Below, piece by piece: positions 3,361 to 28,731 of a stretch of DNA of 64,000 nucleotides; the first letter of the stretch is position 1, and each line of letters begins with the position of its first letter. The translations under genes and the position numbers were made by a program. The notes under the pieces are model-generated. The model saw nothing but the letters and a program-made list of their open reading frames with translations, did not search any database and was not told where the DNA came from. Where the stretch lies: contig JACVTC010000042.1 in the NCBI GenBank assembly GCA_016946835.1, positions 1,153,501 to 1,217,500 of the forward strand. Reading direction: 5' to 3'. Origin of the DNA: Neocallimastix lanati (nom. inval.). Taxonomy: Eukaryota > Neocallimastigomycota > Neocallimastigomycetes > Neocallimastigales > Neocallimastigaceae.

Positions 3361-3469
3361 TGGATTATGTTGATCTATGATCCAGTATCGTACAGCACAT
3401 TTAAATCTTGGAGCCGCTCTTTAGTACGAAGATTACTTATTTTGGATTCTGGCACAAATTCTTCGCACT

Positions 3470-3935: not shown

Positions 3936-3969
3936 GCAGGGGGGAACGGGGATTACCCTGCTTTGATTT

Positions 3970-7740: not shown

Positions 7741-8748
7741 TATATAATTATTACTATAATTTAAATTACAATAATCCTACAAAGAATTATCAAAAGATTT
7801 AAACATGTATTTATATAAAATAACTAATTATCAAAATATTAATTATTAATATAAATATGTAATAGTATTAATATAAGTTTGATATTGATAATATAAACTA
7901 AGATAATAATATAAATATTTAATATAAATAAAATATAAGAATCTAATATAGCTAAATAATATATTTTATAATTAAAATATAATATGTAAAAATTCTGATA
8001 ATAAATTAATATAAAAATTAATTTAATATGACAATCACGTGTATACATTATTGATATACGGGATTTTTATGTGCAATAATTTATAAGCAGTGGGTTTTAA
8101 ATAATGGTAGTTTAGTATATTTTATTAATAAAATTATAATATTCGTACAATTAAAATAATAATTCTAATTCCTAAAAATTTACAAGAGAGTTCTCTATTT
8201 CTATGTAACGAAATCTTCAGTTGATACGTTATTTTATTAATCTTTATTATTAATATTTTAGTATCAATATTTTTGTGAGTTTGCAAGATAGTATAAAATA
8301 AAATAGTATATTCTAATATAGAAATATATAATTACTACACACTTTATTTTAAAACAGAATTTTAAGAATTATTTTTGTCGTTTTATTTTATTTTATTTAA
8401 TTTATTATGTCGTAATACAATTTTATAATAAAGTATTATAAAAAAATCTTATTAACTATTTATTTCTAACTTATTACTATATTATATTTTATAAATAAAT
8501 ATATTCCCCGAATATATTTATCTTAACTAATGTATATCTATTTTCTCCAAAAAAAACCACCCTTTAAAAAATTTATAATAATTTTTCTTTTTATACTTTT
8601 AATTTACTATAATTTAAATCCTATTGGCTGTTAATTAATTAAATAAATTTGAATAATTTTATATTATTATTTATTATTGTAATATAATTAATTATTATAT
8701 TTTATTACAATTTTATTGACAATTTCCATTTTTATTTAAATACTGTAG
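7741..8748. other. AT-rich noncoding stretch
   Basis: There is no protein-like frame, RNA gene or clear repeat boundary. A 69-codon frame at 7839-8048 is only Ile/Tyr/Leu from A+T sequence. It is probably decayed LTR material. Confidence 0.6.
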
Positions 8749-8753
8749 CACAG

Positions 8754-9741
8754 TGTAATAATCATACTAAGTTCTATCACTAAATATGATTATTAACTTC
8801 AACTTAATGACTAATTCATTAAGTTGAGAAATAAAAAATAAAAATAAAAACTTTACCTAAAAAGAGAGTTTATTATAAAATTAATTATAATAACAACACA
8901 AAAAGTAAAAGAAGGAATATTTAGATAAATTTGGTTTTAAGAAATATGTTTTTTTGAATAAAATGTTTTATTAATTTATTAAAATTTAAAATATAAAATT
9001 GCTATTATTATTATTATAACTATATTTTTATAATAATAACTCTTGATTTCTTAAAGGGAAATCAAGAGCCTTATTTATATTTTTTTATGGAAATAAGGTT
9101 AAATAAAATGGTTTTCTAATCTTAAAAAATATCTTATCTAGAAAAAGATTAGAAGAAAAAACTAGATAAGTTTTTTGATCGATATTCTATTCATATCGAT
9201 CATCGTATATATTAAGTAAAACCAAATATATTATTTTATATTTGGATAAAACCTTAATATATCGATTTCCTAAATTTTAATTTAGATCATCTAATAAAAG
9301 GAAAAATCAATAATAACCGGAATGATCTAAATTATTCTATTCTATCTTTCTAAATATTATTTTTAAAATCTAATCTAAACTTATTAACATAAAACTATCT
9401 TTAAACTAGAATACAGAATTATAAAAAATACAGAAACTTATTAATTGTTCTTTTAAATGTACAATGTAAAAAATAAATAAAACTAATGTTTACATTAACT
9501 TGATAATTAAATGAATAACTAAATAAAATTAATAATATTAATAAGTGTACATATAATAATTATTTAAATAAATTTTCTAATATTATTTAAGTGTATGAAT
9601 AATTACAATTATAATAAATTTGATAATAATATCTCAATGTATGAATTAATTATAATTTAAATAAATTTATAATTATTATCAATAATTATAAAGACTAAGA
9701 AATAATAATTATTTATTAGTAAATAATTATTATTTCTTACA
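8754..9741 (+). repeat. Solo LTR family R2, copy R2a, upstream of a tRNA-like relic
   Basis: The block is 988 bp with termini TGTAATAATC...TTTCTTACA and an exact 5-bp duplication CACAG at 8749-8753 and 9742-9746. Family landmarks are an AACTCTTGATTTCTTAAAGG segment near 9040 and the GATCGATATTC..ATATCGATCATCG segment near 9180-9205, both shared with R2b and, inverted, with R2c. Its right end is 16 nt upstream of the tRNA-like sequence at 9758. Confidence 0.85.
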
Positions 9742-9757
9742 CACAGTTAGTAAAATT

Positions 9758-9830
9758 AGAACTTTGGTTCAATGGTTAGTTACATTGACCATGACCAATA
9801 CTTCATGGGTTTGACTCACACCACAACCCA
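9758..9830 (+). pseudogene. Decayed tRNA-like sequence
   Basis: This 73-nt stretch keeps tRNA landmarks. TGGTTCAATGG lies at the position and form of a pol III A box, GGGTTTGACTC is close to a B box/T loop, and the 3' side ends ACAACCCA like an acceptor strand plus discriminator. The anticodon arm can form ATTG/CAAT, but its loop is one base too long, and the acceptor and D stems no longer pair well. It is probably a dead tRNA gene or a tRNA-derived element. The amino acid cannot be assigned. An R2 LTR ends 16 nt upstream, as at the intact tRNA-Thr locus. Confidence 0.5.
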
Positions 9831-11605
9831 TTTTGCATTAATAATTATTTTATTAATTATTTTATTAATTATTAATAATATCTTCTTGAATATTCTTTCT
9901 GTATAAAATTATAGAAAGTTAAAGATTCTTTCGGTTTGTAATTCAACCGAAATGAATTTAGAAATTCTTATTATATAAATTATTTTATTCTTTTTGATAA
10001 GATTCATTTTCATCAATTAAAATCTATATTTTAGAAACTTTACATTATTAATTACTACAAACATATTTCTAAATATTTCTTTAAAATTATTTTTACATGT
10101 TAAAACTGTTTTTCCGTTAAAAGTATAAATAGTGCGAACTTCATGAATGAAAATATTTTTCTTTGTGCTTTTTTTAATAATAATTAACGTATAAGTAATT
10201 CGAAATATTACCTTGTTGATTAATATTAATAATTATTTTAAATTTTATAATTAATAAAAAATATTTCTAATAAAACGAATTATTTATACAAATAGTGTAA
10301 ACCTATTGAGTTTTCTCCTTTCTGTGTTTCTATACCACGTCCCGCCGTTACTATAGAAGCACCTCCGTTACATTCTAATATAAATAATTTAATTTATAAG
10401 AAATAGGTAATATATTAATTATATATTCTAATATATAGAAATATATAAATTTTATATGAAATAAAGTATTATAATTATTATAATTATAATAATACATATT
10501 GAAATAAAATAAAATAAAATAATTATTATCAAAAAGATATAAATTTAATATTTAATAATTATTATTAAATATACAAATATGTTACTACACATATTTGTTT
10601 TATATCATTATTTAATATATATTAATTTCAATATGTTAATAATATTTAGTAATTGGTTGGCCTAGACTAATTCCTAAATATTTTAATAAAGTTAATTTAA
10701 TAATATTTATTATATATTATTATTCATTAATATTGAAATTCAAATAACTGAATTATTGAAATTGAAATTGAATTGAAATTCAGTTATTATCTTAACAATT
10801 TGTAGTTAAGAAATTATTTATAATTAATTTTATAAGTAATTTCTTACATGTACATTTTAAGGTTTTAGAAAATTAAATAAAATAAAAGTAAAAGACACAC
10901 AAATTTTATTTATTTGTTTATTATTTTTATTTATTAATTTTATTAATTGATTGATTTTTGATTTTTAAAAATTGGTAGAAAATTTACAACTATTTATACT
11001 TTTTTCAAGGCATAAAAGTTGTTCTTGCCACTAAACTACATTTTATTTATTTTTTTTTATAAAAACTATTAAATTTAAATTGAATTTTATAATCATTTAT
11101 ATAAAATTTAATTATAACAATATAAATAAAATATATTTATAATATTAATAAAACATTTTTTTTTTTTTTTTTTAATAATCTATCTAAAATATTACTAATA
11201 AGAACTTATTTAATTGGCTATAATTTTTATTACAATCTGTTAAAATATTCAAATAAAAATAAAAAATACTATTCTAATATAAAGGTTTTTAATAAAATAA
11301 AATATTTTTCAATATAAAATAAAAATTTCGATATAAAATTTTATAATAAAAGTTAAAATATAATATATAAATTTTTAATTATTAATACATAAAAATATTA
11401 TTAATACAAATTTTTATTATTAATATAAAAATAAAAAAAAGAATAAGATTTATTATTAATATTGCTAATATAAGTTTTAAATATATAAAAATATTACTAT
11501 TAATATAAGATTTAATATAAAAATATAAAGTTTAATATAATTTTTGATTTAATTTTTGATCTTTGGATTTAAAAATTTATTAAAGTACAAAAATAATAAT
11601 GTACA
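9831..11605. other. AT-rich noncoding region with diverged LTR debris
   Basis: No genes are seen. Near 10841-10860 an R2-like end (TTTCTTACA) is followed by TTTTAAGGTTTTAG, which resembles a mutated start of LTR family R3, so the region probably contains older LTRs. A less AT-rich patch at 10315-10375 (CCACGTCCCGCCGTTACTAT) has no recognisable content. Confidence 0.5.
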
Positions 11606-11610
11606 CATAA

Positions 11611-12535
11611 TGTAATAGAAATAAATCGTAGATTTAATTAATAATGCATTATTTGGTACATTCTTATCATACTATAATAATTCTATTAAGAACTAACTCA
11701 AAATAGAATTATTAACTACAACTTAACGACTAATTCATTAAATTGAGAAAATAAAATAAAATAAAATAAAATTTTTTTTTTACCTAGAGAGTTTATTATA
11801 AAATTAATTATAATAATAACTCGAAACACGAAAGCAAAAGAAGAATTATTTGTATAAATTTGATTTTAAAAAATGTTTTTGAATAAAATATTTTATTAAT
11901 TTATTAAAGTTAAAAATATAAAATTGTTACTATTATAACTATGTTTTTATAATAATAACTCTTGATTTCTCAAAGAGAACTCAAGAGCCTTATTTATATT
12001 TTTTTATGAAAATAAGGTTAAATAAGAAAGGGTTTTCTAATCTTAACAAATCTCTTATCTAGGAAAAGATTAGATAGAAAAACCTAGATAAGTTTTCGAT
12101 CGATATTCTATCCATATCGATCATCGCATTAATTAAGTAAAACCGATTACTTCTAAAAGTAATTGGGAAAAATCTTAATTAACCAATTTTCCAATCTAAT
12201 CTAATGATCGAAAATAAAAGAATAAAATAATAAAAGATATTTCGATCATATAATTTATCCTTATATAAAAATATATAATTAAATAGTTAATAAAATACAG
12301 AATACATTATAAAATACAGAATACAATACAATACAGAATACATTAGTTACAGTAGAGAAATTAATATATTGTAAATATATTATTTAAAATAATTAAATAA
12401 ATTTTGTTAAATTAATGAATATTTAAAAATAAATTTAATGAATAAATATTAAATGTAATTAATTAAAGTTATAGTTATAATAACTTAACTAAGAAAATAT
12501 AATTATTTGTTAGCGAATAATTATTGATACTTACA
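11611..12535 (+). repeat. Solo LTR family R2, copy R2b
   Basis: The block is 925 bp, with termini TGTAATAG...GATACTTACA and the exact flank CATAA at 11606-11610 and 12536-12540. It shares with R2a the CTTGATTTCTC, TCTTATCTAGGAAAAGATTA and CATATCGATCATCG segments. It is the first (outermost, hence oldest by order) LTR of the chain leading to the tRNA-Thr gene. Confidence 0.85.
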
Positions 12536-12541
12536 CATAAA

Positions 12542-13512
12542 TGTTAAGGTTCGGAGAGAGGGAAAAATAAAAATATGTATTAATATAAACAATAAAAAAA
12601 TAACAAACAAGAAAATTAATAAAAAAAATAAATTTTTGTTTTATAAATCCTTTATTAAATTTTTATTTAAAAAATTACAATATTAAAATTACAATATATA
12701 TAAAAAATACAATTTCTTTTACTGTTATTTATATTTTTTTCTTAAAATAATAGAAATGGTAAAGCCATTTCTTTGTATAATTAAAATTAATTATTAAATA
12801 TTTTATATTATTTTTTTATTATTAATATAATTGTTATTTAACTTATAATAAATAATACTTATATATTAATCTATTACTAATTATTTATTACTAATCTACT
12901 TAATTATATATTTTAAAAGACTATTTTTTTATTTTACAGAAGTTAATTCTGTGGTTTAGTAATATTTATTTAATCCTAAAGTTTAATTTTATTAAGTTTA
13001 GAAAAATAATTTTATTTAAATTGTTAATATAAAATTTATAATCATTTCATCAAATTTATAATATAATATTTATAATAAAACATATAATAATAATATAACT
13101 ATTTTCTTTTATGTTTAATTTTTTTATTAGTAATCATTAATACAATTTTTTAATTTGGAATTTTCCAAAGAAATATTTAATATTGATAAGTTTAATATTA
13201 ATAAAAGAAATATTGATAAGATTTTTGATAAACTATAAAGAAAATTGATAAAATAAATTATATAATATAGATAAGGATTTTAATAATAATAAAATATAGA
13301 TAAGAATAATAAAGGTAGCATAGATAAGGAATTAATATTAAATATACTTTTTTTAATTAGTATAATTTAATTTGTACCAATTAGGAATATAGATTAATTT
13401 ATTAGAATATAGAAAGTTCCGAAAGAATAAAGAATCAAATAATTTGTTTAAGGGTTAAATGAATCATTTAAGATGCATAACCAAAAGAACATTATTTGGG
13501 CATTCTTTATCA
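12542..13512 (+). repeat. Solo LTR family R3, copy R3a
   Basis: It starts TGTTAAGGTTCGG and ends CATTCTTTATCA, and is flanked by TAAA on both sides (12538-12541 and 13513-13516). The related copy R3b at 21347-22295 shares the GAAATGG..AAGCCATTTCTTT segment. It lies between R2b and the left LTR of the Ty3 element with only 4-6 bp linkers. Confidence 0.75.
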
Positions 13513-13516
13513 TAAA

Positions 13517-14347
13517 TGGTACAGAATTGAAGATTATTAAAAAAAAAATAATATATTCTAATAATTAAAAATTTAATTTTTCACTAACAAAATAAATATT
13601 ATTTTAACTATTCTAATATAAATAACTTAAATAAATATTTTAATAAAATTTATCTCTAAATTAAAACTAAATTACCAAAACAAACTAAATATTTAAACTA
13701 ACCAAAATTATTTTTATCTTTAACTATAATAAAACACAAAAACAAAACTAATCAATTTAACTAGAGAACAATTTAATTTTATATAATTATTTATTTAATT
13801 ATTTATTAATACTAATACTAAATATTTACTATTTCATTCTCGAAAAATTAAAAGAAAAATATAAAAATAAAGTTGAAAGAAGAGGAAGAACTAAAGTATT
13901 GTTTTACTTTGTTCTTTTTATATCTTTAAAACATTTATTTGATTGGAGTAAAAATAAAAATAAAAATATAAAATATAATAAAAATATAATAACAAAAATA
14001 TAATAATTTTATAATAATAAAATATAATAAAATATAATTTTAATATAATATTTAATATAAGATAATAATAAAAATATAATAAAGTATAATAAAAATTTTA
14101 TAATAAAAATATAAAATAATAATAAATATAATTTTAATTTTTTATAATAAAATATCTAATTGTTTACTATTACAATATTAAATAAATACAATTAATACAT
14201 TATTTTAAATAATTTAATTATTTATACATTATTTAATTTCCTTATTATATATTTTAATACTTTAGTATTTTATTCTTATTTATTTATTAATTAATCTTAA
14301 TAGTTTATTTAATTTTTTATTTTTTATTTATTATTTGTATCGTAACA
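13517..14347 (-). repeat. 3' LTR of the Ty3/gypsy element
   Basis: On the plus strand it reads TGGTACAGAATTG...ATCGTAACA and is repeated almost exactly at 20513-21343. The purine-rich GGGGTGG tract of the internal region abuts it. A short region near 13850-13930 (GAGGAAGAACTAAAG) is the only part that is not plain A+T. Confidence 0.93.
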
Positions 14348-14363
14348 TGATGCCACCCCTAAG
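14348..14363 (-). promoter_or_regulatory. Polypurine tract next to the 3' LTR
   Basis: Read on the minus strand, TTAGGGGTGGCATCA directly precedes the LTR start TGTTACGATAC. A G-rich run at this position is where plus-strand DNA synthesis is primed in LTR elements. This call rests on position and composition only. Confidence 0.55.
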
Positions 14364-14364
14364 A

Positions 14365-17300
14365 TCAGACTTCGTCCCTTGAAGTCTCAATTTCACATAA
14401 TCTATACGGAACGATATTCTTTAAATGCACATTTCTTTCGGCTATTTCATTAGTAACTGGATCACAAAGCGTTACTGTATTAAATTGTTTTTTAACTATT
14501 TTCATTGGTCCTAAGAAATAAGGATCAAGTTTTCTTCTGTTTATATATTTAACTAATACTAAGTCACCAGGTTTATATTCTGCTTTAAGTCTTTTAACTT
14601 GTTTTCTTCTATCTTCCCATATTTTATTGGCAGTTTGAATATTGTTTATGGCTTCTTTTATCCATTTATAATGAGTAGTAAACCTTCTAATTAAAAATTC
14701 ATCTTCGCTTTCATAATTTTCCTTTTTGTCTAAGTTCAACATTAATTCAAATGGTTGAAGGTCACGACGACCATACAACAATTCAAAACTTGAAAATTTT
14801 GTTGTTTCATTTTTACAAGTACGTAAAGCCCATAACGCACTTGGTAATATTTCATCCCATATAGAAGTGTTTTTGTTGCATAATAATCTTAAGTATTTTC
14901 CAATTTCTTTATTGCGGTTTTCAACTTCACCATTTGACTCAGGATGATAAGTAGCAACAAATTGAACGAAAACGCCATATAAATCAAGAAATGCTTTTGT
15001 TTTATCGGAGCAGAATTGTGGACCATTATCAGTTACGATTACTTCGGGTATTCCAAATCGAGCAAAAATATCAGATAAAAATTCAATTACATCATCGGAT
15101 TCAATGTTTTGTTTTGGTTTTGCTTCTACCCATTTTGTTAGATAATCAACTAAGACTAATATATATTTATTTCCTTTCTTTGTTGTTGGGAGTGGGCCTA
15201 TAATATCTAAACCAACTCTTGAAAACGGTAATCCTGGTTTAGTAGCAATGTCTTCTGTTTGATAGTTAAACGACTGGGGTCTAAATAATTGGCATCTTTC
15301 ACAGGTTTTTACAATATACTAAACATCAAGAATCATATTAGTCCAATAATAGTCACGTTTAAGTCTATTATTTGTTTTAAATACACCTTCGTGACCAATT
15401 TTATGTGCTTTTAATATTAAATCAACTTTTTCGTCTTGATTCTTAATAACTTTTCTTAGTTTACCATCATCCTTAAAATATTCTTCATTATTAATTACTA
15501 TGAATTTGTCTTTATAACAAGAAAGTAAATTATTTGAATTATTTTCACCTATTTCACTTGTTATGGTACTTATAATTTTATTATGCTCAGTATGTAGTCT
15601 GGATAGTGCATCTGCTATAACATTCTTTTTTCCTGGTTCGTATAATACTTTGACTTTTAACATCGAAAGAAGTAAAACCCAACGTTTTTGCCTAGAATTA
15701 TTGGTTTCTTTGTCTTTGAATAATCCTACTAATGGCTTGTGGTCTGTGTAAAGAAGTGTTTCATACTTATTTCCAGCAATATAAGACTTAAATTTTGTAA
15801 CACAGTAAGTCGCGGCTGTACCCTCAAGATCTGTTATTGCATAATTCTTCTCCGCCGGCTTTAAAGAGCGACTTACAAAATGAATAGGTTTTTCAATGTT
15901 GTTTTCATCTTTTTGAAGAAGAACTCCTCCAATACCATCATAAGAAGCGTCAGTACGGATAATAAATTGTTTATCAAAATTAGGCATAGTTAAAATAGGA
16001 GCAGAAGCTAACTTAATTTTTAATTCATTGAAACTATCATCTTGTTCTTTATCCCATATAAATTTAACACCTTTCTTACATAATTTGAACAATGGTTTAG
16101 CAATATTAGAAAAGTTGAATATAAACTTTCGATAATAGCCGACTGCACCAAGAAAGGACTGTAATTGAGTGATATTTCTTGGTGGAATCCATTCTAAAAT
16201 AACTTGAATTTTTTCTTGTATAGAGGAAATTCCATTAATTGATAAAGTATGACCTAATAAATTGACTTTTTCTTTGAAGAAATTGCATTTTTCTAAATTA
16301 ATTTTTAAGTTATTTTCTTTAATGATGTTGAATACTTTATTGAGATCCTCTATATGTTGTTCAATAGAAGGAGAGAATACAACTAAATCATCAACGTAGA
16401 CAAACATACAAATTCCAATAAGTGGTAGAAATATCCTATTCATTTCCCTTTGGAAGGTTCCGGGAGCATTACATAATCCAAAAGGCATTACTCGAAACTG
16501 GTAATTGCCATACATAGTGGTGAAACTTGTTTTAGGTATATCGTCTTTATACATTGGAATCTGATGAAAACCAGAAAATAAATCGATTGTAGTGAACACT
16601 TTAACCTCAGTTCCAATTGAAAATAATATTTCATCGATTATAGGTAATGCATAGGCATCTTTTATTGTGACGGTGTTTAATTTCCTAAAGTCCACACACA
16701 ATCTTCATTTCTTATTCTTTTTTAGTACTAATATAACTGGAGAGGACCAGGGAGAATTGGAAGGTTCAATTAACTTGTTATTTATAAGTTTTTCTAATTC
16801 AACTTTAAGTGCTTTAGCTTGAACCCTAGAAAGCCTATAACATCGTTGTTTTATTGGTTTGGCATTATCTACTAAATGAATTCTGTGTGGTAATAATTTA
16901 GTCGGTTGAAGTTCTTCAATTTTTGTTGCAAAAATAGTGGAAAATTCTTTTAATAATTTTCTAACCTTCTTTTTATTTTTATTGGGAATTTCAATTATAA
17001 TGTTTTGTAGTAAAGTCGCCTTTTTATTTTCATCTTCATCAATTTTATTATTAACTTTGCTATCATTATTATTATTTAGAGTATTTAATTTTTCATTATG
17101 GTTTTCCAACAATTTATTATTATTTTCATCTTTATTTTCATTAATAAAGCAGTATAAATAAGAATTGTTATTAATATCAGAATTAGATTTATCTTCTGTA
17201 TTTTTTGATTCATCTTCTTCATCATCGTTAATAACATCTTTATTATTTTCCTTTCCAAGTTTTGTTAAACATTTCCATGAATTATTTTCTTTCATAAGGC

Positions 17301-18357
17301 ATAGAGAATTATTTATTGGATTTATAAATAAATTATTATCTTTAAGTGTTCCATAACCAATTAAAATATCAAATAAATTATGTTTACTATCAATAACTCT
17401 AAAAATATCGTGTAAATTTAACTTTCCAATATTAACATTTAATAAATATATCTCTGTATACACATTTTCTTTTGATAAGACTTGGACAATATTATTTTTT
17501 ACATATCCCACTGGTTTAATATTTCCTAGCTTGTTTAAGAATTGTTTGGTAACTATATTTATACTAGCACCTGTATCTAGAAAAGCGATTCCTTTTACTT
17601 TATTAATTCGACATTCTGTTGTTGCTACATCATCTCTAGCCATTACTGATAAGATGATTTCTTCTGGAGTTTTCTTATTTATTGCAGGGCTTTTTAGCCT
17701 CAATGCTTTTATAAATTCCGCTCGTAATTTTGGACTAATATCTAATAATCGTGAAAATGTAATATTTGCAAATTTATTATTGAGATCATTTGTTATATCA
17801 TATTTTGGTTGTCCATCCATTATCATAATGTGTTTTTCTATTTTATCAGTATTATTATTTTTTGTTTTTCTTTCCTCTAATTGTGTACTTGGTAATTTAT
17901 TTTGTTTATTAATATTAGTTTCTTGAATAATATTTTCTGATTCTTCAATGATTTCTTTTTCTTTTTGATTTTTAGCATTTTGTTTCGCTTTGTTGATAGA
18001 TGGTTGTGCTAAAACTGAAACGTCAATTTCATTAAGTCTTTCAGTTTCAGTTGGATGTGTTGTAATAGGTAATATTGAAATTTCATTCTCAGTTTGAATT
18101 TTATTGCTATTGCTTTTATCGACATCAAAACTAGCATTCGTATTATTGTTTTCAATTGTTTGTAATTCATCATTTTCTAATTCCATTTTTTCAACTTCAT
18201 TATTATGATTATTCTTTGTATTTATAGTTTTATTTGTTTTTGTTTTAGTCTTACTATAAGGCTTTTCTTTATTTGTTTTCTTATTATTTCTTACGGCAAC
18301 AGCAACAATTTCATTTTTGGTTTGATTGTTGGAAGTTTTCCTTCTTCCATTTAAAAG
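14365..18357 (-). pseudogene. pol: pol of the Ty3/gypsy element, one frame with two nonsense codons
   Basis: After the slippery site the -1 frame stays open for about 4 kb except for TGA at 16705-16707 and TAG at 15319-15321. In order: an Asn/Lys-rich linker; aspartic protease (AFLDTGASINIV, about 17575); RT (VDFRKLNTVTIKDAYALP; YVDD at 16387-16398); RNase H (RTDASYDGIGGVLLQ, YTDHKPLVGLF, NVIADALSRL); integrase zinc site (HKIGHEG..YYWTN, then CERC) and core with TDNGPQF near 15030 and a later Glu in GEVENR; and a basic C-terminal region (KPGDLVLVKYINRRKLDPYFLGP). The TGA replaces the residue before the RLCVDFRK motif, where a Trp is usual. No frameshifts are seen. No chromodomain is evident. 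Confidence 0.93.
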
Positions 18358-19313
18358 TTTAAAGATTCATTATTATTCTTTTCTTCCATTTCTGCAAGTT
18401 GTTTAAAAGAGTAAGGACAATGATTGTAATAATGACCTTTTTGACCGCATCTATAGCATGTTTTTTGATTATTATAAGTTGATTTCGTTTCATTAATATT
18501 ATTATTATTAGAAAAGATTGATTCTTTTCTTGTAATTGGATTATTGTTTGTATAATTATTGACTTTATCATTATTAAAGTGAATTCTATTATAATTATTT
18601 TGAAAGTCAGCATGCCCTTTGTAATATCTTTGATTAAAATTATTTTTCTTGATGTAACTTTGTCTTCCGTTAAAAGTGGAATTATAATTTATTGTTTTAG
18701 TTTGTCTGTAAGGATTAACTGTGTAATTATTATTGTTGTAATAAAACGGATGATTATTATATAACGTTGTCATTATAACTTCATTATTGTTATTTCTTCT
18801 TTCTTCAGCTCTTTCTGCAAGTTCAGCTTCTTCAAATGCATCTTCTAAATCCAAACATCTTTGTGTAATTACTTGTGATCTTGCGTAGGGTCTATAAATA
18901 ATTGATTCTTCATAATCTTCTACTGTAATAAATGTTTGGTAAAACTTTGGGAGATTATTATACATTTTTTTATATCTCCAATTGAAATTTCTTATGCTTT
19001 CTCCTTTCTGAATTCTTAACTTTTGAAGCCGTTTGCATTTTTCTTGTGGTGTTATGTCTAAAGCCTTCTCAATTACGTCCTTAATTTCTTGAATTGTTGG
19101 ATAATTTTGAACACCATCTTCAATTGTATATAAGTCTTGTATTATTCCCCTTAATTTTCCTTCAACGCACTCCATTGCCCAGGAGTGTATACTCATTGGA
19201 TTGGTAATATTGGCTAGAGACATGATTCTTGTGAATTCGTCACACCAAGAATCAATATCTCTATCGTATTCATTAAGACGGGGAAGCAAACTTTCTAGTT
19301 CTAATATTTTCAT
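18351..19313 (-). CDS. gag: Gag of the Ty3/gypsy element
   Basis: The product is 320 aa and forms the particle that packages the element RNA. The N-terminal two-thirds resembles retrotransposon Gag (LPRLNEYDRDIDSWCDEFTRIM, then KALDITPQEKCKRLQKLRIQKGESIRNFNWRYKKMYNNLP). An Asn/Tyr-rich linker follows, then one zinc knuckle, CYRCGQKGHYYNHC, at residues 286-299 (CX2CX4HX4C). The start at 19313 is the first ATG after the long leader. The stop overlaps the frameshift signal into pol. No break is seen. Confidence 0.9.
   Translation of the reverse strand: MKILELESLLPRLNEYDRDIDSWCDEFTRIMSLANITNPMSIHSWAMECVEGKLRGIIQDLYTIEDGVQNYPTIQEIKDVIEKALDITPQEKCKRLQKLRIQKGESIRNFNWRYKKMYNNLPKFYQTFITVEDYEESIIYRPYARSQVITQRCLDLEDAFEEAELAERAEERRNNNNEVIMTTLYNNHPFYYNNNNYTVNPYRQTKTINYNSTFNGRQSYIKKNNFNQRYYKGHADFQNNYNRIHFNNDKVNNYTNNNPITRKESIFSNNNNINETKSTYNNQKTCYRCGQKGHYYNHCPYSFKQLAEMEEKNNNESLNF
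18357..18363 (-). promoter_or_regulatory. -1 programmed frameshift heptamer between gag and pol
   Basis: On the minus strand the last gag codons read TCT TTA AAC TTT TAA, which contains T TTA AAC in the zero frame, one of the classic slippery heptamers. A one-base backward slip continues in the pol frame, which is open from this point with no stop until 16705. A downstream pseudoknot was not tested. Confidence 0.8.
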
Positions 19314-20315
19314 TTTAATAAGATTGAATATATTGATGGATGGATTGATAAGTGGATAAGTTTTTGTTGTTTTGTTAATTATAAGATTATTTTTTATTTC
19401 CTATAAATATTTTTTTTTTTTTATTATTTTTTGCCTGAACTTATTGAATTAACTTTTTAATGGATGACTAATTAGAAGTATTGATAAATTTTTTTTTTTT
19501 TTTTTTTTTTATAAATAATATAAAGTGAAAATTTCTTGATTATGAATTTAAATATAGAATGATATTATTTTTGGATTAAACTGATACTGAAATAAAATTG
19601 AATAAATTGAAATTAAAAATGTGTAAGTGAAAAATTTTATTTATTTATTGAATTGATTAATTATTTGATGTATTGAAAATTAAAACTTTTATTTTTATAT
19701 TCTTATAAAGATTTATAAGGTGGACCTTATACCTTCGGTGATATAAGTTCATTATTGTTCCAGTGCTCGATCTTGTCCAAAAACCCTGACAACGCTCGGA
19801 TAGTTGATAAACTACGGAAAGTGCCGTGGGGAGTATAATTATTACTTTGGGACGTATTCACGCACTCACGAGATCGACTAAAAACCTTAATTAGTAAAAA
19901 ATTGGAATCACCCTAATTCTTTACTAATTAATTTTCAACCGGTTTACACACTGTATATAAATCTTTATAATTTTTGGTTTTAATTTTTCTTTTGAATGAA
20001 AATAATAAATATACTTTTTTATCAGTATTTAATAATCCTATTTTTTATACTATATACAATTTATTGTAAATTTAATTATAAAATTTAAACTTTCCAATAT
20101 CAAAATTAACAAAAATTTTACTTTAATTTAATTATTTAATTCCCTATTTACCTACTAACTATTTTCAATAATTTATTACTAATTTATTATTATTTTTTTT
20201 TTTTTTTTATTATTATTATTATTACTAATAATTTTATAATAAAATTTCCAACTTTAAATTATAATCCAAATTTTTTTTTTTGTCAATTTTCTAACTATTC
20301 TATTGGTTAAATTTT

Positions 20316-20353
<38 letters not shown>

Positions 20354-20390
20354 CAATTTTCTAATTATTCTATTGGCTAAATTTCAAAAA

Positions 20391-20423
<33 letters not shown>

Positions 20424-20482
20424 CTACAACTTTATTATTTATCTAATATTTTAATTATTATTTTCATATTATTTTTTTTATC
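19314..20482 (-). other. Untranslated leader of the Ty3/gypsy element
   Basis: About 1.2 kb lies between the primer-binding site and the gag start. It has several long T runs on the plus strand (near 19490-19510, 20316-20353 and 20394-20423). A less AT-rich segment at 19710-19970 includes a hairpin with perfect 12-bp arms (TTAATTAGTAAA at 19887-19898 and its complement at 19920-19931). The position suits packaging or dimerisation signals, but that is inference. Confidence 0.65.
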
Positions 20483-20505
20483 TTCAAGTCCTGCATAGCT
20501 CGCCA
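20483..20505 (-). promoter_or_regulatory. Primer-binding site matching a tRNA 3' end
   Basis: The plus strand here reads exactly like the last 23 nt of a mature tRNA: T loop TTCAAGT, T-stem strand CCTGC, acceptor strand ATAGCTC, discriminator G, then CCA. It lies 7 nt inside the 5' LTR, so on the minus strand it is the expected complement that anneals a tRNA primer. The donor tRNA is not in this window; tRNA-Thr at 23289 has a different 3' end. Confidence 0.85.
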
Positions 20506-20512
20506 AGATTTA

Positions 20513-21343
20513 TGGTACAGAATTGAAGATTATTAAAAAAAAATAATATATTCTAATAATTAAAAATTTAATTTTTCACTAACAAAATAAATATTATTTT
20601 AACTATTCTAATATAAATAACTTAAATAAATATTTTAATAAAATTTATCTCTAAATTAAAACTAAATTACCAAAACAAACTAAATATTTAAACTAACCAA
20701 AATTATTTTTATCTTTAACTATAATAAAACACAAAAACAAAACTAATCAATTTAACTAGAGAACAATTTAATTTTATATAATTATTTATTTAATTATTTA
20801 TTAATACTAATACTAAATATTTACTATTTCATTCTCGAAAAATTAAAAGAAAAATATAAAAATAAAGTTGAAAGAAGAGGAAGAACTAAAGTATTGTTTT
20901 ACTTTGTTCTTTTTATATCTTTAAAACATTTATTTGATTGGAGTAAAAATAAAAAAAAAAATATAAAATATAATAAAAATATAATAACAAAAATATAATA
21001 ATTTTATAATAATAAAATATAATAAAATATAATTTTAATATAATATTTAATATAAGATAATAATAAAAATATAATAAAGTATAATAAAAATTTTATAATA
21101 AAAATATAAAATAATAATAAATATAATTTTAATTTTTTATAATAAAATATCTAATTGTTTACTATTACAATATTAAATAAATACAATTAATACATTATTT
21201 TAAATAATTTAATTATTTATACATTATTTAATTTCCTTATTATATATTTTAATACTTTAGTATTTTATTCTTATTTATTTATTAATTAATCTTAATAGTT
21301 TATTTAATTTTTTATTTTTTTATTTATTATTTGTATCGTAACA
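20513..21343 (-). repeat. 5' LTR of the Ty3/gypsy element
   Basis: It is 831 bp and nearly identical to 13517-14347. It should carry the element promoter; no TATA motif can be singled out in such A+T-rich DNA. Three bases (TAA) separate it from R3b. Confidence 0.93.
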
Positions 21344-21346
21344 TAA

Positions 21347-22295
21347 TGTTGAGGTTCGGGACAGAATAATAATAAATATAGAAATAAACACTAAAATAAA
21401 AAAAATTAAAAATTAAAATATATCTTTTTTTTAAAATATTTTATTTATTTATTTAATAAAAATTATTCAATTAAAAACTAAAAATAAATTAATTTCTTTA
21501 ATAAGATTCTATTTTTTTTCTCAGATTATTTTTCTAAAATACAATTTTCTCATCTATTTATATTTTTTTTTATCGTTAGAAATGGTCAAGCCATTTCTTT
21601 AGAATATCTTAGAGTTACATGTTTGAATTGTATTTAAATTATAAATTCATAATCTATTCTATTATAATAAATAATTATTACATATTATTAAATTCTAAAC
21701 TATTTATTATTAATTGTAGTGATAATATATTTTAAATAATTGTAGTGATAATATATTTTAAAAATAATTTTATTACTTTTACAGAACTATTAGTAATAGA
21801 GTATTATTTAATTTTATACTATTTTTAAATAAAAGTATTTTAGATTATTATCTATTATTAATCTTATTATAAATAGGGTGTATTTTGGAAGGAAGTATTA
21901 CTAATTCTAATGACAAGGATCATGGATTTAAGTAAAAGATTTTTAAATCATTATTAATTATATTAATTTTTATTAATAATAAATAATCTGTATTAGTAAT
22001 ATTTGTAAAATAAAATTTTCTTTAATAATAAAATATTGATAGAATAAATCATATTAATAAAACTAGATATTGATAATAATATTGATATTAATAATATAGT
22101 ATTAATTTTAATAATAAAGTATTGATATTAATAAAGAATTTATATTAATAATAATAAATTTAATATTAGTAATAATTTGGCAGTAATAGAACATAAGAAA
22201 GTTCCCCAAGTAAGGAAATAAATAATTTAATTTTAGTGGTTAAGTTATTTTTATGAAAAATAATAAAATTAACATTATTTGTTCATTCCTTAACA
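21347..22295 (+). repeat. Solo LTR family R3, copy R3b
   Basis: It has termini TGTTGAGG...CCTTAACA, which are almost perfect 8-bp inverted ends. The flank is ATAA at 21343-21346 (sharing the final A of the Ty3 LTR), and ATAA is restored on the right when R2c and its duplication are removed. It is related to R3a along its length. Confidence 0.8.
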
Positions 22296-22298
22296 ATA

Positions 22299-23271
22299 TG
22301 TAAGAATCTATAATTATTTTTAAATAAAATAATTATATTTTCTTAGTTAAGTTATAATTATAACTTTATTTAATTATATAATATTTATTCATTTAAATAT
22401 TATTAATAATTTATTAAACTCAATATTAAATAATCATTAATTTAATACAACAAATTTATTTAATTAATTATTATTTATACATTTATAAATAATTATAGTT
22501 TATTTAATTATATATTTAATTATTAAATTTATTAGTCTTAGTTTATTTATTTAATTAAATTGTAAACAAATATATTATGTATTCTAATATGTACTTAATA
22601 ATGTATTCTGTATTTTGTTTATTAATATCATTATTATGTTATTTTCCTTATTTGTAAATTTATGATTTTATGGTCGAAATATCTTTTATTATTTTATTCT
22701 TTTATTTTCGATCAATTAAATTAGATTAGCTAATCGGTCAATTAGGGTTTTTCCCAATCACTTTTTAAAAGTAATTGGTTTTACCTAATTGATACGATGA
22801 TCGATATGGATAGAATATCGATCAAAAATCTTATCTAGGTTTTTCTCTCTAATCTTTTCCTAGATAAGAGATTTGTTAAGATTAGAAAACATTTTTTAAT
22901 TTAACCTTATTTTTCAAAAAAGTATAAATAAAGCTCTTGAATTCTCTTTGAGAAATCAAGAGTTATTATTATAACAATTATAATATAGTAATAACATTAA
23001 TAAAATTTTTATATTTCTATTTTAATAAAGTAAGTTTTAATAAAAAACAAATTTAAAAAAAAAAAAATAAATAAAATAAAATAATCTTTTCTCTTTGACA
23101 ATTTTGTGTTATTAGTTTATTATAATTAGTTATAATAAACTCTCTCTTATAGAAGATAAGTATATTTATCTTTTTTTTTGTTTTCTCAATTTAATAATAA
23201 TTATTATTTAGTTATTATTAAGTTGTAGTTAATAATTTAATTCTAATTAATTTTATAATTAAATTATTACA
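22299..23271 (-). repeat. Solo LTR family R2, copy R2c, 17 bp upstream of tRNA-Thr
   Basis: The block is 973 bp with inverted ends TGTAA...TTACA and an exact 5-bp duplication CAATA at 22294-22298 and 23272-23276. It is the reverse orientation of R2a and R2b; the ACGATGATCGATATGGATAG segment near 22795 is the landmark. It is the insertion closest to the tRNA gene and so the last of the series. Confidence 0.88.
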
Positions 23272-23288
23272 CAATAAAACCAGGGAAT

Positions 23289-23360
23289 CCCTGTTTGGCT
23301 TAATGGTAGAGCGTCGCTCTTGTAAAGCGAAGGTCGGTGGTTCGATTCCGTCAATAGGCA
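23289..23360 (+). tRNA. tRNA-Thr (UGU)
   Basis: The 72-nt sequence folds as a cloverleaf. The acceptor strands are CCCTGTT and AATAGGC plus discriminator A; the first pair is C-C and the other six pair, one as G-U. D arm GCTT-AATGGTA-GAGC. Anticodon arm TCGCT-CTTGTAA-AGCGA, giving anticodon TGT. T arm GGTGG-TTCGATT-CCGTC with two G-U pairs. There is no intron. CCA is not encoded. The terminal mismatch may be a mutation or an edited pair. The gene is flanked closely by an LTR upstream and a copia element downstream. Confidence 0.9.
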
Positions 23361-23430: not shown

Positions 23431-23621
23431 TGTTAAACGACAATATTAATGTGTCGAACATAGTATCTACCAATCATATTTTACATACAAACAAAATAAG
23501 ATAAGAAAATTACAAATAGTTCATAAAAATGTAGTTAATCTTGTTTTTATATAATAAATAAAAATGCTATATTAATATTACATACTTTATAAGTGTACTT
23601 CTATAATTTTAGTGTTTAAAA
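23431..23621 (+). repeat. 5' LTR of the copia element
   Basis: It runs from TGTTAAACGAC to GTGTTTAAAA. The only difference from the 3' LTR seen by eye is T for C near 23530. It does not end in the usual CA, but the exact TSD fixes the boundary. Confidence 0.92.
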
Positions 23622-24253
23622 GATTAAAAGTCTCATCTCACCTCAACTCATATAAAGCTAAGTATTAAAATATATATAGTATAAAAAAAATAAATAATAA
23701 AATATATTCTTACTAATTAATATCTTAAAATACCAATAAAAAAAAAAAAAAAAAAAATGGAATTTTTTTAATCAAATTCAACATTATACATATATATTTA
23801 AAAGATGAAAAACAATTCATTTTTTAATTTATATACAAAAAAAAAAAAAAAAAAAAAAAAAAAGGCTTACATAGATAAGAAATAAATAATGCTATGCTGA
23901 AATAGTCAGCAGCAAATAAAAGGTAAATAATGCTATGCTGAATTGTCAGCAGCAAATAATAAACGTCACACTGAAAATAGTCAGTGACAAAATTAAATCT
24001 TATTAAAATTTCAATTAAATAATAAGATTTAAAAGGAAATATAATTCGCGTTAAGAACAAATGAATAAACAAATAATTTATCGAATAGAATTTAAAATAA
24101 AAATATATATTAAATTAATAATAAATTAAAGGTGAATTTAATTATTCCTATATAGATATATAAAACAATGAAGAACCTTAATATCAAAATTTAAACCAAT
24201 AATTTAAATACATTAAAATTACCATAATTATTACTTAACCAATTAAATTTAAC

Positions 24254-24307
<54 letters not shown>

Positions 24308-24508
24308 TATAAGTATTAATCATTCAACAAATCAAATAATAGTATTTCAACCAATTAAATTAAATAATATAATAAAATAAAACAAACAAACATTCAATAT
24401 TCAATCACATCATATGCTAACATAAAGTTCTTAAAGACTTAGTAAACGAACAAAAAAAATTTTTTATCAAGAAAACATTTATCCAAAATTCAAAAGGGAG
24501 ATAACAAT
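23622..24508 (+). other. Leader of the copia element with three consecutive hairpins
   Basis: The leader is AT-rich with long A runs. Three short stem-loops follow each other: TGCTGA/TCAGCA at 23895-23911, the same stem at 23936-23951, and CACTGA/TCAGTG at 23969-23986. The first two sit in a repeated AATGCTATGCTGA context. No TGG-type primer-binding site adjoins the LTR, so the primer is unclear. Confidence 0.65.
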
Positions 24509-24781
24509 ATGAGTAGAAACAGAAACAACATACCTATAACTATTGATGACACAGATGAAACCTTAACAAAAGGTATCACGTTCAATTACTCGGAAAATTT
24601 CAATCGTGTTATTGAACTATCTACAGAAAATTACCCCAGCTGGAGAACGAACATTCTATATCTACTGATGATTAACAACCTTGAAGGATACGTAATAGAA
24701 GAAAAAAAAAGAAACTTAGAAAAAGAAATCTTAGGGATGACCTTGACAACTACCTTGAAGACAAGTTTGACCCCAGCCTAG
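24509..24781 (+). CDS. gag: N-terminal part of copia Gag, split by a frame change
   Basis: The 90-aa frame starts with an ATG after GGGAGATAACAAT. It matches a copia Gag N-terminus (ITFNYSENFNRVIELSTENYPSWRTNILYLLMINNLEGYVIEEK). The next frame continues the protein without a gap (DDLDNYLEDKF, then YDKNTSLKDIKND), so a -1 shift happens between about 24702 and 24735. An A9 run at 24702-24710 is the likeliest place. It could be a mutation, a sequencing slip, or translational slippage; copia elements normally use one frame. Confidence 0.75.
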   Translation: MSRNRNNIPITIDDTDETLTKGITFNYSENFNRVIELSTENYPSWRTNILYLLMINNLEGYVIEEKKRNLEKEILGMTLTTTLKTSLTPA

Positions 24782-27700
24782 TATACGATAAGAACACATC
24801 GTTAAAAGACATAAAAAACGATGTGATGGTAAAATGGATCATTACCAACAGCCTAGGAGAGAATACAAAGAAAATAATTGAAGGTAATGGAAAGACAGCT
24901 CATCAAATATGGATTACATTAGAAAAGTCCTTCACAATGAGTCCAGAGAAAAGGAAACTTGAAATTAAAAGCAAAATAAATAATTTGAAATACAACGAAG
25001 AAGACGACATTAACATTTTCATTGCTAAACTCCAAAACGCAATAGATGAGCTAGAAAATATTGACTATGAGTTAAGTGACCCTGTCAAGGCTGGTATTTT
25101 GAATAGGTCACTCCCTGAAAACCTAAGGTTTATAAATGTTTTCCAATATAAAAATGATTGGAAGCAACTCTGCAATTACGTTAAGGATGTCATTCCAGAC
25201 ATCATATTCTCTAACACTAGAGAGATATCCAAGACGGAAGAGAACAAATTGTTCCTAGTTGAATCCCAAGCCAAGAATAGGAACAAAATTTCTAAGGTTA
25301 TCACAACAAGAAAAAGAAAAAATGGTAAATGCTTCAACTGTGGTACTTTTGGACATTACTCTTATGAATGCAGAAACAAGGCCAAATACAGATTCAAAAG
25401 GAAACCATTCAAAAAAAACCTCAGAAAGAATTATTGTAACAACATTCCAAGTACCTCCAAGTATATTAGGAACCAACGTAAGAATCAAGTGAACGCCATT
25501 GAAAAACCTCAAGATATTTTCGAAGACTGTAATACCGAAAATGGGATATTATTAAATTGTATTACAAACACTGTCAGCAATAACCACTATCCACAAAGCC
25601 ACATATCACAATGGATAATAGACTCAGGAGCATCCATACATATCACAGGATGTATTGACTTACTTACAGATATTAAAAAATGTAATGAAGAAGTTATTCT
25701 CCCAAACGGTAAGACAGTTGTTGCCTCCGCTTACGGTAATTTTACCGGATATATTGACAATTCAAAATTTATATTAAAGAACGTGTTCTACGTCGATAAC
25801 ATAAACAAAAATATAATATCAGTTACCAAACTTATCCAACAACACTATAAAATTATATTTTTCAATTACAACAACAAACCTTATTTAACCATTTACAATG
25901 ATTCCGGCAAAAGAATCATTAACGTTAGTTCAAACAGCCAGAATATTTTTACTTTATGGATATCGAACAAGCTAATTTCAAACAACGAACCAAAACACGA
26001 CAAAACCTTATTGATGCACCTCTCTACTCTAAACAAATTAGATAAAATTAATTTATGGCACAGTCGCCTTGGGCACTTCAACATTAACCCTATTAAAAAT
26101 AAACTATTAAAAATTAATATCAAATCTAAATGTCCAATATGCTCTCAATCAAAACAAAGAAACTTACCTCATCGGAAATCAAACAACAGAGCCAAAGCTC
26201 CTTTTGAACTAATTCACATGGACCTAGTGGGTCCAGTAGTAGAATCTATTCATTCCAATAAATATTTCCTATCCATCCTTGATGACTATTCTCGTTTTGG
26301 TTGGGTCCTCTTCATCCAAAACAAGAGTGACATTTTCGAAAAGTTCACTTTATGGGTTAAATCTATTGAAAATATATTTAATAAGACCATCACTTACATT
26401 CGTACCGACAATGGTACGGAATTTACGAACAATAAATTCAAGTATTTCTGCTCTCAGAGAGGTATTGTTCAACAGTTCACTATCCCTCATAATCCTCAAC
26501 AAAATGGGAGAGCTGAACGATTTAATGGCACTCTCATTAGTTCAGCTAAATCTCTACTTAATGATTCACAACTTAGTAAAGAATTCTGGGAATACGCGGT
26601 AGACACTGCTAATTACATACACAATCGTATTCCCCACTCTGGCATCAACAACAAAATCCCTTTTGAACTATTATTCAAAACTAAAATGGATTATTCACAT
26701 TTTAAAGTCTTCGGTTGTAAGGTCTTCTTCTTTGTTCCTAAATCACAACGAAACAAATTCGACAATAATTCCCTTCCAGGTATCTTCTTGGGTTATCACC
26801 CATTAACTAATTCCTATAAAATTCTGAACATAGCTAATAATAAGATCGTTCTCTCTCGTTCAGTCGAATTCTTCGAAGATACTCCTGGAAACTCCAAAAT
26901 ATCTCGCCCAGTTCCTAGAAATTTCCCAAACTTTATGCCAATTTCCGAAATCAGGGGGAGCAACACCTATATGTTAAACAATTTTAATAATTTTAATAAC
27001 TTTTCTTACAATCCACAAAACTCGCATGGACAAATCGACAACAGCAATAAGATAAATTATAACAATATTTCCTCACACAAAGAAAACAAAACAAACGACA
27101 CAACCACTGAATTAAACCAAATAAACACCAGAAAACGTAATGATAATCAAAAACTCAAAGAACCAAATGACTTTGATGACATCTTTAGCCTACCTGACAA
27201 AGACGACTGGTTAAAAGCCATAAACGAGGAACTTAAGAATATGGAGAAACTTAAGGTTTTCAATACCACCAAATCCTTACCTACTGGTGCTAATATCATA
27301 TCCTGTAAGTGGGTACTAAAATATAAAAGGGACACCGATGGGAATATCACAAAAAGAAAAGCCCGTCTAGTAGCTAGAGGCTTCACTCAAAGGTATGGAA
27401 TAGACTATACCTTCACCTTCTCCCCCACATTAAAACTAGACTCACTACGAATTATCGTTGCTCTCGCAGTACAAAGAAACTACCGAATAATGCAAATTGA
27501 CGTTAACGCCGCATACTTAAATGCCGACCTAAATGAAAACATCTATATCAAGGCACCAAAGGGACACCCGATGCACAACAAAGGATTCTTAAAACTCAAC
27601 AAAGCCTTGTATGGATTAAAGCAGGCAGGCCGAGAATGGAACGAGACATTGAACAACACACTCACAAAGATTGGATTCCGAAGATTAATTAGTGAACCGT

Positions 27701-28686
27701 GCCTATACATCATGGAAAACGAATCAAAAGAGGTTCTATGTATTGTAGCGGTCTACGTAGATGATATATTACTGATAGGTAAACAAAAAGAAATTTTATA
27801 TGTAAAAGAACAAATTAAAGTATATTTTAATATTAAAGATATAGGTGATATTGATTTCGTCATTGGAATAAAATTTAAAAAATATTACGATGGATATTTC
27901 ATGCAACAACGAGGTTACATAAAAGAATTATTAGTTAAGTTTAAACTAAAAGATCGCTTACCCGTTAAAAACTTGAAACCCATTGAGAATCTTAATTTAA
28001 GAAAAAGAAAGTGCGACGAAACATTATATAGGAGTGCAATTGGAAAATTAATCTATCTAGCTGTCTGTACTAGGCCTGATATAATGTTCGCCGTAAGCAG
28101 GGCTGCCAGAAAGAATAAGAATCCAACTTTAGAGGATTGGGCCAATGTTGAACGAATATTCAAGTATCTGAGTTATACTATAAACTACGGGATAAAATTC
28201 ACAAAGGAAAGGTCGTTGAAAGTATACGTAGATGCAGATTTCGCGGGCGACACCGAATCGAGAAAGTCAACCTCTGGATTCTTGATGATGATTGGAAATG
28301 CGCCAACTAGCTGGTATTCTAAGCTACAGAAGTGTGTAGCGACATCTACTGCTGAATCGGAATATTATGGTGTTAGTGAGTGTGCAAAGCATAGCCTATG
28401 GTACATGAACATATTAAACGAATTGAATATAAATATAAATTCCGTTACCATTAATATTGATAATAAGGCCGCAATATACAACTGTCAGAATCAATCAATA
28501 AACTCAAGATCAAAGCATATCGACATCAAATATCATCACGTAAGGGAACTTATTAAGGAAAATAAAATAAATTTGAAATATATTAATTCTAAAGAAAATC
28601 TAGTTGATGGATTTACAAAGTATCTTTGTAACTCCCTAATGGACAAATTTAGAAATTCACTACTCACGGAAGTGAAAGACCACTGA
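24735..28686 (+). CDS. gag-pol: Copia Gag-Pol polyprotein
   Basis: The frame is open from about 24735 to the stop at 28684-28686. Numbering from 24823: Gag, then zinc knuckle CFNCGTFGHYSYEC (170-183); protease WIIDSGASIHIT (D near 267); integrase zinc site LWHSRLGHFN..CPICSQSKQR; integrase core with HMDLVGP, RTDNGTEF (about 529) and QQNGRAERFNG; RT with KARLVARGFTQRYGIDY, YLNADL, LYGLKQAGREW and YVDD (about 978); RNase H with YVDADFAGD, STAESEYYGVSE and DNKAAIYNCQN..RSKHIDIKYHHVRE. Order and motifs are those of Pseudoviridae. All catalytic motifs look intact. Confidence 0.95.
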
Positions 28687-28719
28687 GACAAATCTCACAT
28701 ATCTTTACGGATAGTTAGA

Positions 28720-28731
28720 TTTGAGGGGGAG
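28720..28731 (+). promoter_or_regulatory. Polypurine tract of the copia element
   Basis: TTGAGGGGGAG immediately precedes the 3' LTR start TGTTAAAC. This is the standard position and composition for plus-strand priming. Confidence 0.8.

Follow-up and report, generated by a model that had tools for sequence, protein, structure and literature searches.

Long terminal repeats of several Ty3/gypsy families stacked at a fixed distance upstream of RNA polymerase III promoters in Neocallimastix lanati

Why should long terminal repeat (LTR) elements of different families lie end to end directly in front of a single transfer RNA (tRNA) gene? The question is raised by a 64,000-nucleotide stretch of the anaerobic gut fungus Neocallimastix lanati (GCA_016946835.1, contig JACVTC010000042.1, positions 1,153,501 to 1,217,500; hereafter the window, on contig C357 in our numbering), in which a tRNA-Thr gene is preceded by a row of LTRs. 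An earlier reading, made from the letters of the window alone (the sequence-only reading), took this row for five serial insertions at one spot. From the junctions in the window and from searches of the 199.0-Mb assembly (762 contigs), we consider it highly probable that several Ty3/gypsy families insert at one fixed position upstream of RNA polymerase III (Pol III) promoters. The features of the row are as follows (window coordinates; lengths in base pairs, bp):

10855-11669, minus strand (inferred from ends that resemble R3): R6, a solo LTR, delimited by alignments to loci L061 and L047 and by its junctions
11673-12535, minus strand: R2b, a solo LTR, duplication CATAC/CATAA (4 of 5 bases match), delimited by aligned relatives and junctions
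12542-13512, minus strand: R3a, a solo LTR, duplication TAAA, junctions read
13517-21343, minus strand: Ty3/gypsy element, duplication TAAA, LTRs at 13517-14347 and 20513-21343
18354-19400: Gag frame of the Ty3/gypsy element
18366-16708, 16704-15322 and 15318-14368: Pol frame of the same element, in three open pieces
21347-22295, minus strand: R3b, a solo LTR, duplication ATAA, junctions read
22299-23271, plus strand: R2c, a solo LTR, duplication CAATA, 17 bp upstream of the mature tRNA 5' end
23289-23360, plus strand: tRNA-Thr (TGT), the target gene, with A-box T8 at 23296 and the B box from 23339

Read base by base, the junctions place R2b, R3a, the Ty3/gypsy element, R3b and R2c end to end in this order toward tRNA-Thr (called by both ARAGORN and Rfam, 61.4 bits). 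Each later element sits between the gene and its predecessor, and each has its own duplication. The order and nesting given by the sequence-only reading were upheld, and its R2c end, 17 bp from the mature tRNA, was confirmed at the junction; its claim that peeling off the elements restores the same target each time was borne out by eye, from the tRNA side outward. Its total of five layers and its R2b edge did not stand. That edge had been set at 11611, with CATAA as duplication; with 11611-12535 as query, however, the match to its 39 best relatives elsewhere in the genome begins at position 25 or beyond in 38 (at exactly 65 in 19) and at position 6 in one. Since R2 copies align from 11675, the LTR of R2b starts at 11673, and the first ~60 bp formerly assigned to it are part of R6. 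The CATAA at 11606 lies inside R6, another solo LTR, and the stack therefore has at least six layers. R6, which matches L061 at 93.9% (up to 11669) and L047 at 92.9% (from 10857), starts TTTTAAGG where TGTTAAGG would be expected, ends TTCTTATCA and is flanked by TACA at its 5' side and TAC at its 3' side. The sequence behind it ends TTTCTTACA and may be one further R2-type end.

With later insertions removed by eye, the distance from LTR end to A-box T8 is 24 nucleotides (nt) for R2c, 23 for R2b, 22 for R3b and 21 for the Ty3 element and R3a; subtraction of 7 gives the distance to the mature tRNA, from which the LTR ends lie 14-17 bp. The families with 5-bp duplications stand ~2 nt farther out than those with 4-bp duplications. 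That the short linkers are duplicated target, as had been proposed, agrees with solo copies elsewhere: perfect duplications of 5 bp were found in 14 of 20 R2 copies, and of 4 bp in 15 of 25 R3 and 4 of 7 Ty3 LTR copies, while no match of 6 or 7 bp was found in the tested copies of these three LTRs. R2b and R2c are 80% alike across 632 bp; between R3a and R3b no match exceeds 150 bits, and the two do not count as close copies. Over its first 31 nt (23289-23319), the tRNA-Thr of the window differs at 2 positions from a form present in 35 perfect copies, and, as read, its acceptor stem has C1 opposite C72. This gene may be decaying, despite the recent arrival of R2c.

The nested order had also been proposed as a relative dating. 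When mismatches were compared with gap columns left out, by measures that differ in kind between elements, R2c showed 0 mismatches to its nearest fetched relatives, R3b showed 3 (with 29 gap positions), and the two LTRs of the Ty3 element (99.5% identical) showed 1 between them; R3a, R2b and R6 were 97%, 96% and ~94% (L061) identical to their nearest relatives, respectively. The trend is roughly as predicted, except that R3b and the Ty3 LTR pair are not separable. Such stacks provide a relative insertion record at single genes.

Is the position peculiar to this gene? For each of R2, R3 and the Ty3 LTR, the 40 best-scored copies were taken from 1737-6399 candidates, so that copies like the query are over-represented. 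The 80 loci fetched, mostly with 700-bp flanks, held 39 R2, 39 R3 and 14 (of 38 intended) Ty3 LTR copies. At its curated threshold, Rfam found 9 tRNAs in these loci, all pointing away from the LTR and all 13-18 bp from its end (R2: 15, 16, 16, 16, 16, 16 and 18; R3: 13; Ty3 LTR: 13 bp). A B-box scan added five R2 loci with tRNA-like sequence at an equal distance (L039, L016, L010, L032 and L036). A tRNA or A/B-box sequence occupies that spot in 12 of the 39 R2 copies, and in 11 of these the B box is 66-68 bp from the LTR end, the twelfth being the tRNA in L024. The distance test that the sequence-only reading had put forward, run here on samples of the genome, thus came out as predicted, with tRNAs near LTRs at 13-18 bp from an LTR end. 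At the 13 R2 sites including R2c, one LTR end faces the promoter in seven and the other end in six, and R2 shows no orientation preference.

We also compared the coordinates of 235 LTR matches of six families with those of 114 listed tRNAs (Thr plus top-scoring ones, mostly Arg). Eight pairs had the LTR within 3 kb upstream of the tRNA and one had it downstream (2984 bp), the close pairs being at 14, 15 and 17 bp. Two of the close pairs had been counted before, L011 (15 bp) and the window (17 bp), and the one of R3a type at 14 bp is the only new one. The tRNA-adjacent copies that speak for targeting by R3 and the Ty3 element are few: 1 of 39, 1 of 14, those in the window and this R3a-type copy found by coordinates. 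The latter stands in front of one gene of a dense tRNA-Arg cluster at C555:170732-399007, parts of which have a spacing of ~540 bp. Downstream of the tRNA-Thr of the window, a copia element (23431-28922; RVT_2; LTRs of 191 bp, 99.5% identical) starts at a distance of 69 bp. The idea that it too is tRNA-targeted found no support: ARAGORN found no tRNA at seven other copia loci, and 0 of 37 copia matches came within 3 kb of any of the 114 tRNAs. The position of this element near tRNA-Thr looks incidental.

Pattern searches of the whole genome extended the measurement. The first pattern, with author-chosen motifs, combined an R2-type end (TTCTTACA), a gap left free over 52-82 and a B-box core; it gave 86 matches, compared to 11 with the reversed pattern. 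These matches were classified as 57 tRNA genes of 16 anticodon types (one doubtful), 24 tRNA-like sequences and 5 background matches. The distance from LTR end to A-box T8 was 21-25 in 72 of the 80 measured (50 of 57 tRNA genes and 22 of 23 tRNA-like sequences, one tRNA-like match with no located A box being excluded). The exceptions were 14, 26, 27, 32 and three times 34 (one repeated string) among tRNA genes and 27 among tRNA-like sequences. The long variable arm of Ser and Leu tRNAs separates the two boxes: the B-box gap is 77.9 in the 10 Ser/Leu genes vs. 68.1 in the other 47, i.e., 10 nt farther, whereas the A-box distance is 23.8 vs. 23.9. Since the B box shifts by 10 nt and the A-box distance stays constant, the reference for the site lies on the A-box/start side. 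Variable-arm tRNAs thus serve as a natural sequence test of how the insertion site is measured.

A second pattern for R3/Ty3-type ends returned 71 matches, of which 12 came without letters and were left unclassified and 36 of the other 59 were tRNA or tRNA-like. A script located the A box in 32 of these 36 and put 25 at 20-23; some A boxes were misplaced and were recounted by eye from the strings, after which 28 of 32 fell in the peak at 20-23. In this recount three (one repeated Leu string) were at 12 and six that had been placed elsewhere were at 20-21; among the four matches with no located A box, one was at 10.

Two alternatives bear on these histograms. Insertion could be random, with only the copies upstream of tRNA genes surviving selection, and the region upstream of tRNA genes is indeed a known safe haven (part of PMC5006619 consulted). 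Selection would not, however, produce a spread of ~4 bp or a shift of 2 nt between 5-bp and 4-bp families, and a 199-Mb genome should offer much other tolerant room; we regard survival alone as very improbable. The stacks could otherwise result from errors of assembly, or from segmental duplication of a single ancestral stack. Repeated segments do exist (C202/C232/C409; C173/C397/C445; L050/L059/L065), yet neighbors and duplications differ by locus, every insertion in the window has its own duplication, and the shape of the histogram is unchanged when identical strings are collapsed. This explanation is still less probable than the preceding one, and targeted insertion at a fixed position is preferred to both.

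Are tRNA genes the only targets? Upstream of the row, a second stack interrupts the LTR of another element, here called X:

8204-8221: start of the LTR of X (18 bp, TGTAACGAAATCTTCAGT), detached by the insertions and identified from its junction and from the uninterrupted form in other X copies
8222-8750: R8, a solo LTR in the LTR of X, duplication CAGT, delimited by junction and alignment
8754-9741, minus strand: R2a, a solo LTR inserted after R8, duplication CACAG
9747-10372, plus strand (that of the tRNA-like sequence): remainder of the LTR of X, by comparison with other X copies

This two-layer stack (R8, then R2a) spans 8204-10372. At ~9758-9838, the LTR of X contains a tRNA-like sequence, whose A and B boxes are spaced as in tRNAs and are followed by a T run. 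The R8 end is 21 nt (R2a removed) and the R2a end 23 nt before its A-box T8, which are two distances also found at tRNA-Thr. Uninterrupted copies of the X LTR start TGTAACGAAATCTTCAGTTAG, and among the best 40 of 331 candidates many are paired ~5.3 kb apart. In the DNA upstream of 20 of these 40 copies, 3 have an inserted LTR at the same spot, 10 are the internal-side LTR of a longer element and 7 are uninterrupted, the latter with other upstream DNA. The tRNA-like sequence is antisense to the strand of X on which the LTR is followed by a TGG resembling a primer site. Rfam gave no tRNA match at E-values up to 1 in five X copies and none in three R2 loci beside other tRNA-like targets; what these targets have in common with tRNAs is therefore only the promoter-like boxes. 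The neighbor of R2a was considered as an ordinary tRNA gene and rejected, as it belongs to the LTR of X and has no Rfam tRNA score. In addition to X, seven kinds of non-canonical A/B-box sequence adjoin LTRs among the pattern matches.

Elements like X may carry tRNA-like promoters and thereby create sites used by at least two gypsy lineages, a landing-pad system in which insertions would be positioned without a chromodomain as ruler; we find the case for and against such a system evenly balanced. If true, harmless integration sites would grow with the transposons themselves, independent of tRNA gene number, and LTR-borne tRNA-like targets would make the safe-haven idea testable where transposons provide the havens.

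Most copies elsewhere in the genome seem to lie inside stacks. Among the free LTR ends of the fetched loci, 106 of 135 have TG at 2-6 bp, compared to 30, 31 and 19 at the control offsets 12-16, 22-26 and 32-36. Ninety of the 135 adjoin an 18-mer terminus that is present at another locus; these termini are of ~20 kinds, a number to which a single family may contribute both of its ends. By the TG rule, a two-sided tally of 92 copies gave at least one LTR-like neighbor in 77; a Pol III promoter on both sides was found in 0 of 92.

These 90 ends, together with the AT-rich targets of the window, are what would be expected if the elements preferred other LTR ends or an AT-rich word and met tRNAs by chance at the edge of a cluster. 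A preference of this kind does not account for the narrow A-box distance across 16 anticodon types with differing 5' flanks, for duplications that vary among copies, or for the placement of all nine Rfam tRNAs at 13-18 bp; moreover, the insertions in X are inside an LTR, at the right distance from a tRNA-like promoter, and not at an LTR end. LTR-end preference, though the least improbable of the three alternatives, is accordingly very unlikely, and insertion relative to the Pol III promoter remains our reading of the stacks.

What kinds of element use the site? R2, R3 and the window element all have the Pfam order RVT_1, RT_RNaseH, Integrase_H2C2 and rve (run for the window element on a relative with a longer open frame, with a PDB sequence comparison also used); the rve of R2 is just under the curated cut-off (29.1 vs. 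32.6 bits). By this Pol domain order, their TG..CA LTRs and fixed duplications of 4-5 bp, all three belong to Ty3/gypsy (Metaviridae). R3 and the window element form a sister pair, with 47% identity in Pol, and R2 is a separate lineage, 31% identical to R3, so two distinct gypsy lineages target Pol III promoters. The closest PDB entry to R2 is yeast Ty3, 7q5b, which we take to be the structure of PMC8632968, yeast Ty3 on a TFIIIB-bound tRNA gene.

The R2 Pol, open over 904 codons in 7 of 7 full copies read, aligns to yeast Ty3 through reverse transcriptase, RNase H, integrase and SH3-like domain (E-value 2.8e-140). The match extends to Ty3 residue 1447 of 1547; another 9 residues complete the R2 Pol, and its stop codon ends 9 bp before the 3' LTR. 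There is thus no room for a chromodomain. Judged by sequence, 5-12 residues of integrase follow the SH3-like domain in R2, R3 and the Ty3-like element, and Pfam found no chromodomain (PF00385) in the Pol of R2, R3 or the window element. Among the best 120 of 7429 database relatives of R2, some of which are truncated, PF00385 was counted by eye in 0 of the first 20 and 72 of the next 100. Integrases that have no chromodomain and still position insertions within a few bp question the need for this domain as a ruler. R2 also lacks a TGG primer site immediately downstream of its 5' LTR (L016:1664). What stands in this place is ATAATAACTCTT, exactly complementary to 12 nt within the LTR of R2 itself (R2c 660-671), as would be expected for self-priming of the kind used by Tf1.

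Several observations weigh against a fixed position set by the Pol III promoter. Only 12 of 39 R2, 1 of 39 R3 and 1 of 14 Ty3 LTR copies are directly at such a promoter. Most of the non-adjacent copies have an LTR-like neighbor, and a stack was traced to a Pol III gene only in the window; one R2 and one R3 copy have neither a Pol III promoter nor an LTR-like neighbor on either side. The loose B-box scan also hit 6 places where no tRNA is present, at distances that differ from the usual one (3-89 bp). The ends matched by the first pattern carry no individual family assignment, and only 5 of the 86 are also LTR ends of listed R2 or R2b copies; some matches are duplicated segments, the 57 tRNA matches reducing to 53 distinct strings, and at one of the 50 tRNA sites (C1:3987403) the pattern met its word by chance within an R3-type end. 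The pattern for R3/Ty3-type ends is noisy, with 31 matches when reversed and 23 background matches among the 59 classified, 15 of these at one gap and mostly from one repeated segment. The common termini are partly due to repeated loci (L050, L059 and L065). Finally, the three integrases do not have the chromodomain that positions yeast Ty3. As a separate observation on C1:3987403, the R3-type end there (CCTTAACA) runs directly into the A box of a tRNA-Thr whose acceptor stem is missing; as read, this is a rare misplaced insertion or a later deletion.

How could one site receive so many insertions? An A/B-box promoter would, via TFIIIC, place TFIIIB upstream, and TFIIIB would probably hold the complex of integrase and complementary DNA. 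Strand transfer would then take place ~10-18 bp before the mature tRNA end, regardless of local sequence. Because such an insertion would spare the internal promoter, the tRNA gene would stay a target, the next insertion would fall between the tRNA and the previous element, and repetition would build an LTR stack that runs from old to young towards the gene. The claim of the sequence-only reading that each new copy lands between the tRNA and the last one holds in the window. Its further claim that three families recognize the Pol III apparatus stands as to targeting, for more than three families and for tRNA-like promoters as well; for recognition of TFIIIB itself, we infer contact from the fixed A-box distance, the sequence indifference, the reusable site and the sharing of this site by 4-bp and 5-bp families, all of which docking on TFIIIB would fit. 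The solo LTRs presumably arose by LTR-LTR recombination, and the elements may be currently active.

The rest of the window contains other features. At 40603-46577 is a tandem pair of AAA-ATPase-like genes (PF09820, PF08011), ~86% identical in DNA across 2.8 kb, whose family is numerous in Neocallimastix, Anaeromyces and Piromyces. The gene at 44844-46577 is 98-100% identical to proteins of Neocallimastix californiae and 80-83% identical to the closest ones of N. lanati. Long AT-rich satellite-like arrays at 34069-37656, 53364-54770 and 62924-64000 match one another, partly in inverted orientation.

How does this compare with known systems? Among the leading matches in the open-access literature, we found no report that elements of anaerobic gut fungi target tRNAs or form LTR stacks, nor any of many-family stacking, sequential insertions at tRNA genes or landing on LTR-borne tRNA-like promoters. 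The papers cited below were consulted in part. LTRs with tRNA-derived sequence bearing a Pol III promoter are known from Helenus, a short non-autonomous terminal-repeat retrotransposon in miniature (PMC10886601). The LTR of X appears to carry a tRNA-like promoter too; unlike Helenus, X is not short, as its LTRs are ~5.3 kb apart, and it has no Rfam tRNA score. The parts of PMC10886601 consulted make no mention of Helenus as a target of other elements.

In yeast, Ty3 lands 1-4 bp ahead of the site where Pol III starts, at ~12-15 bp upstream of the mature tRNA (PMC8632968, PMC5911963, PMC5006619), and the chromodomain of its integrase, which follows the SH3-like domain, contacts Brf1 as a ruler (PMC8632968). 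The elements described here resemble Ty3 in the Ty3/gypsy domain order, in the 5-bp duplication, which R2 shares, and in the match of the R2 Pol through the SH3-like domain. They differ in that the Ty3 integrase runs ~100 residues past this domain whereas those of R2, R3 and the Ty3-like element stop 5-12 after it, and in that several families here share each site and form stacks. Tj1 of Schizosaccharomyces japonicus, Tca8/beta of Candida albicans, and Tyl3, Ylt1 and Tyl6 of Yarrowia, which are likewise Ty3/gypsy elements, also insert a few bp upstream of Pol III starts or tRNAs (PMC5911963, PMC4600332), and Yarrowia has three Pol III-targeted Ty3/gypsy families (PMC5911963). All of these are in ascomycete yeasts, unlike the host of R2, R3 and the Ty3 element, and Tj1 has a single orientation (PMC4600332) whereas R2 has both (7 and 6 of 13).

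DGLT-A of dictyostelids, a gypsy element without a chromodomain that inserts at a mean of 15 bp (13-33) upstream of tRNA genes (PMC5006619), is similar in both its distance and its lack of this domain; it belongs to a separate host group, and stacks are not described in the text of PMC5006619 consulted. Pol III targeting by gypsy elements is known from ascomycete yeasts and dictyostelids, and tRNA-like promoters in LTRs are known as in Helenus. The insertions described here would extend Ty3-type Pol III targeting to a chytrid-related fungal phylum, the Neocallimastigomycota, with two gypsy lineages on one site.

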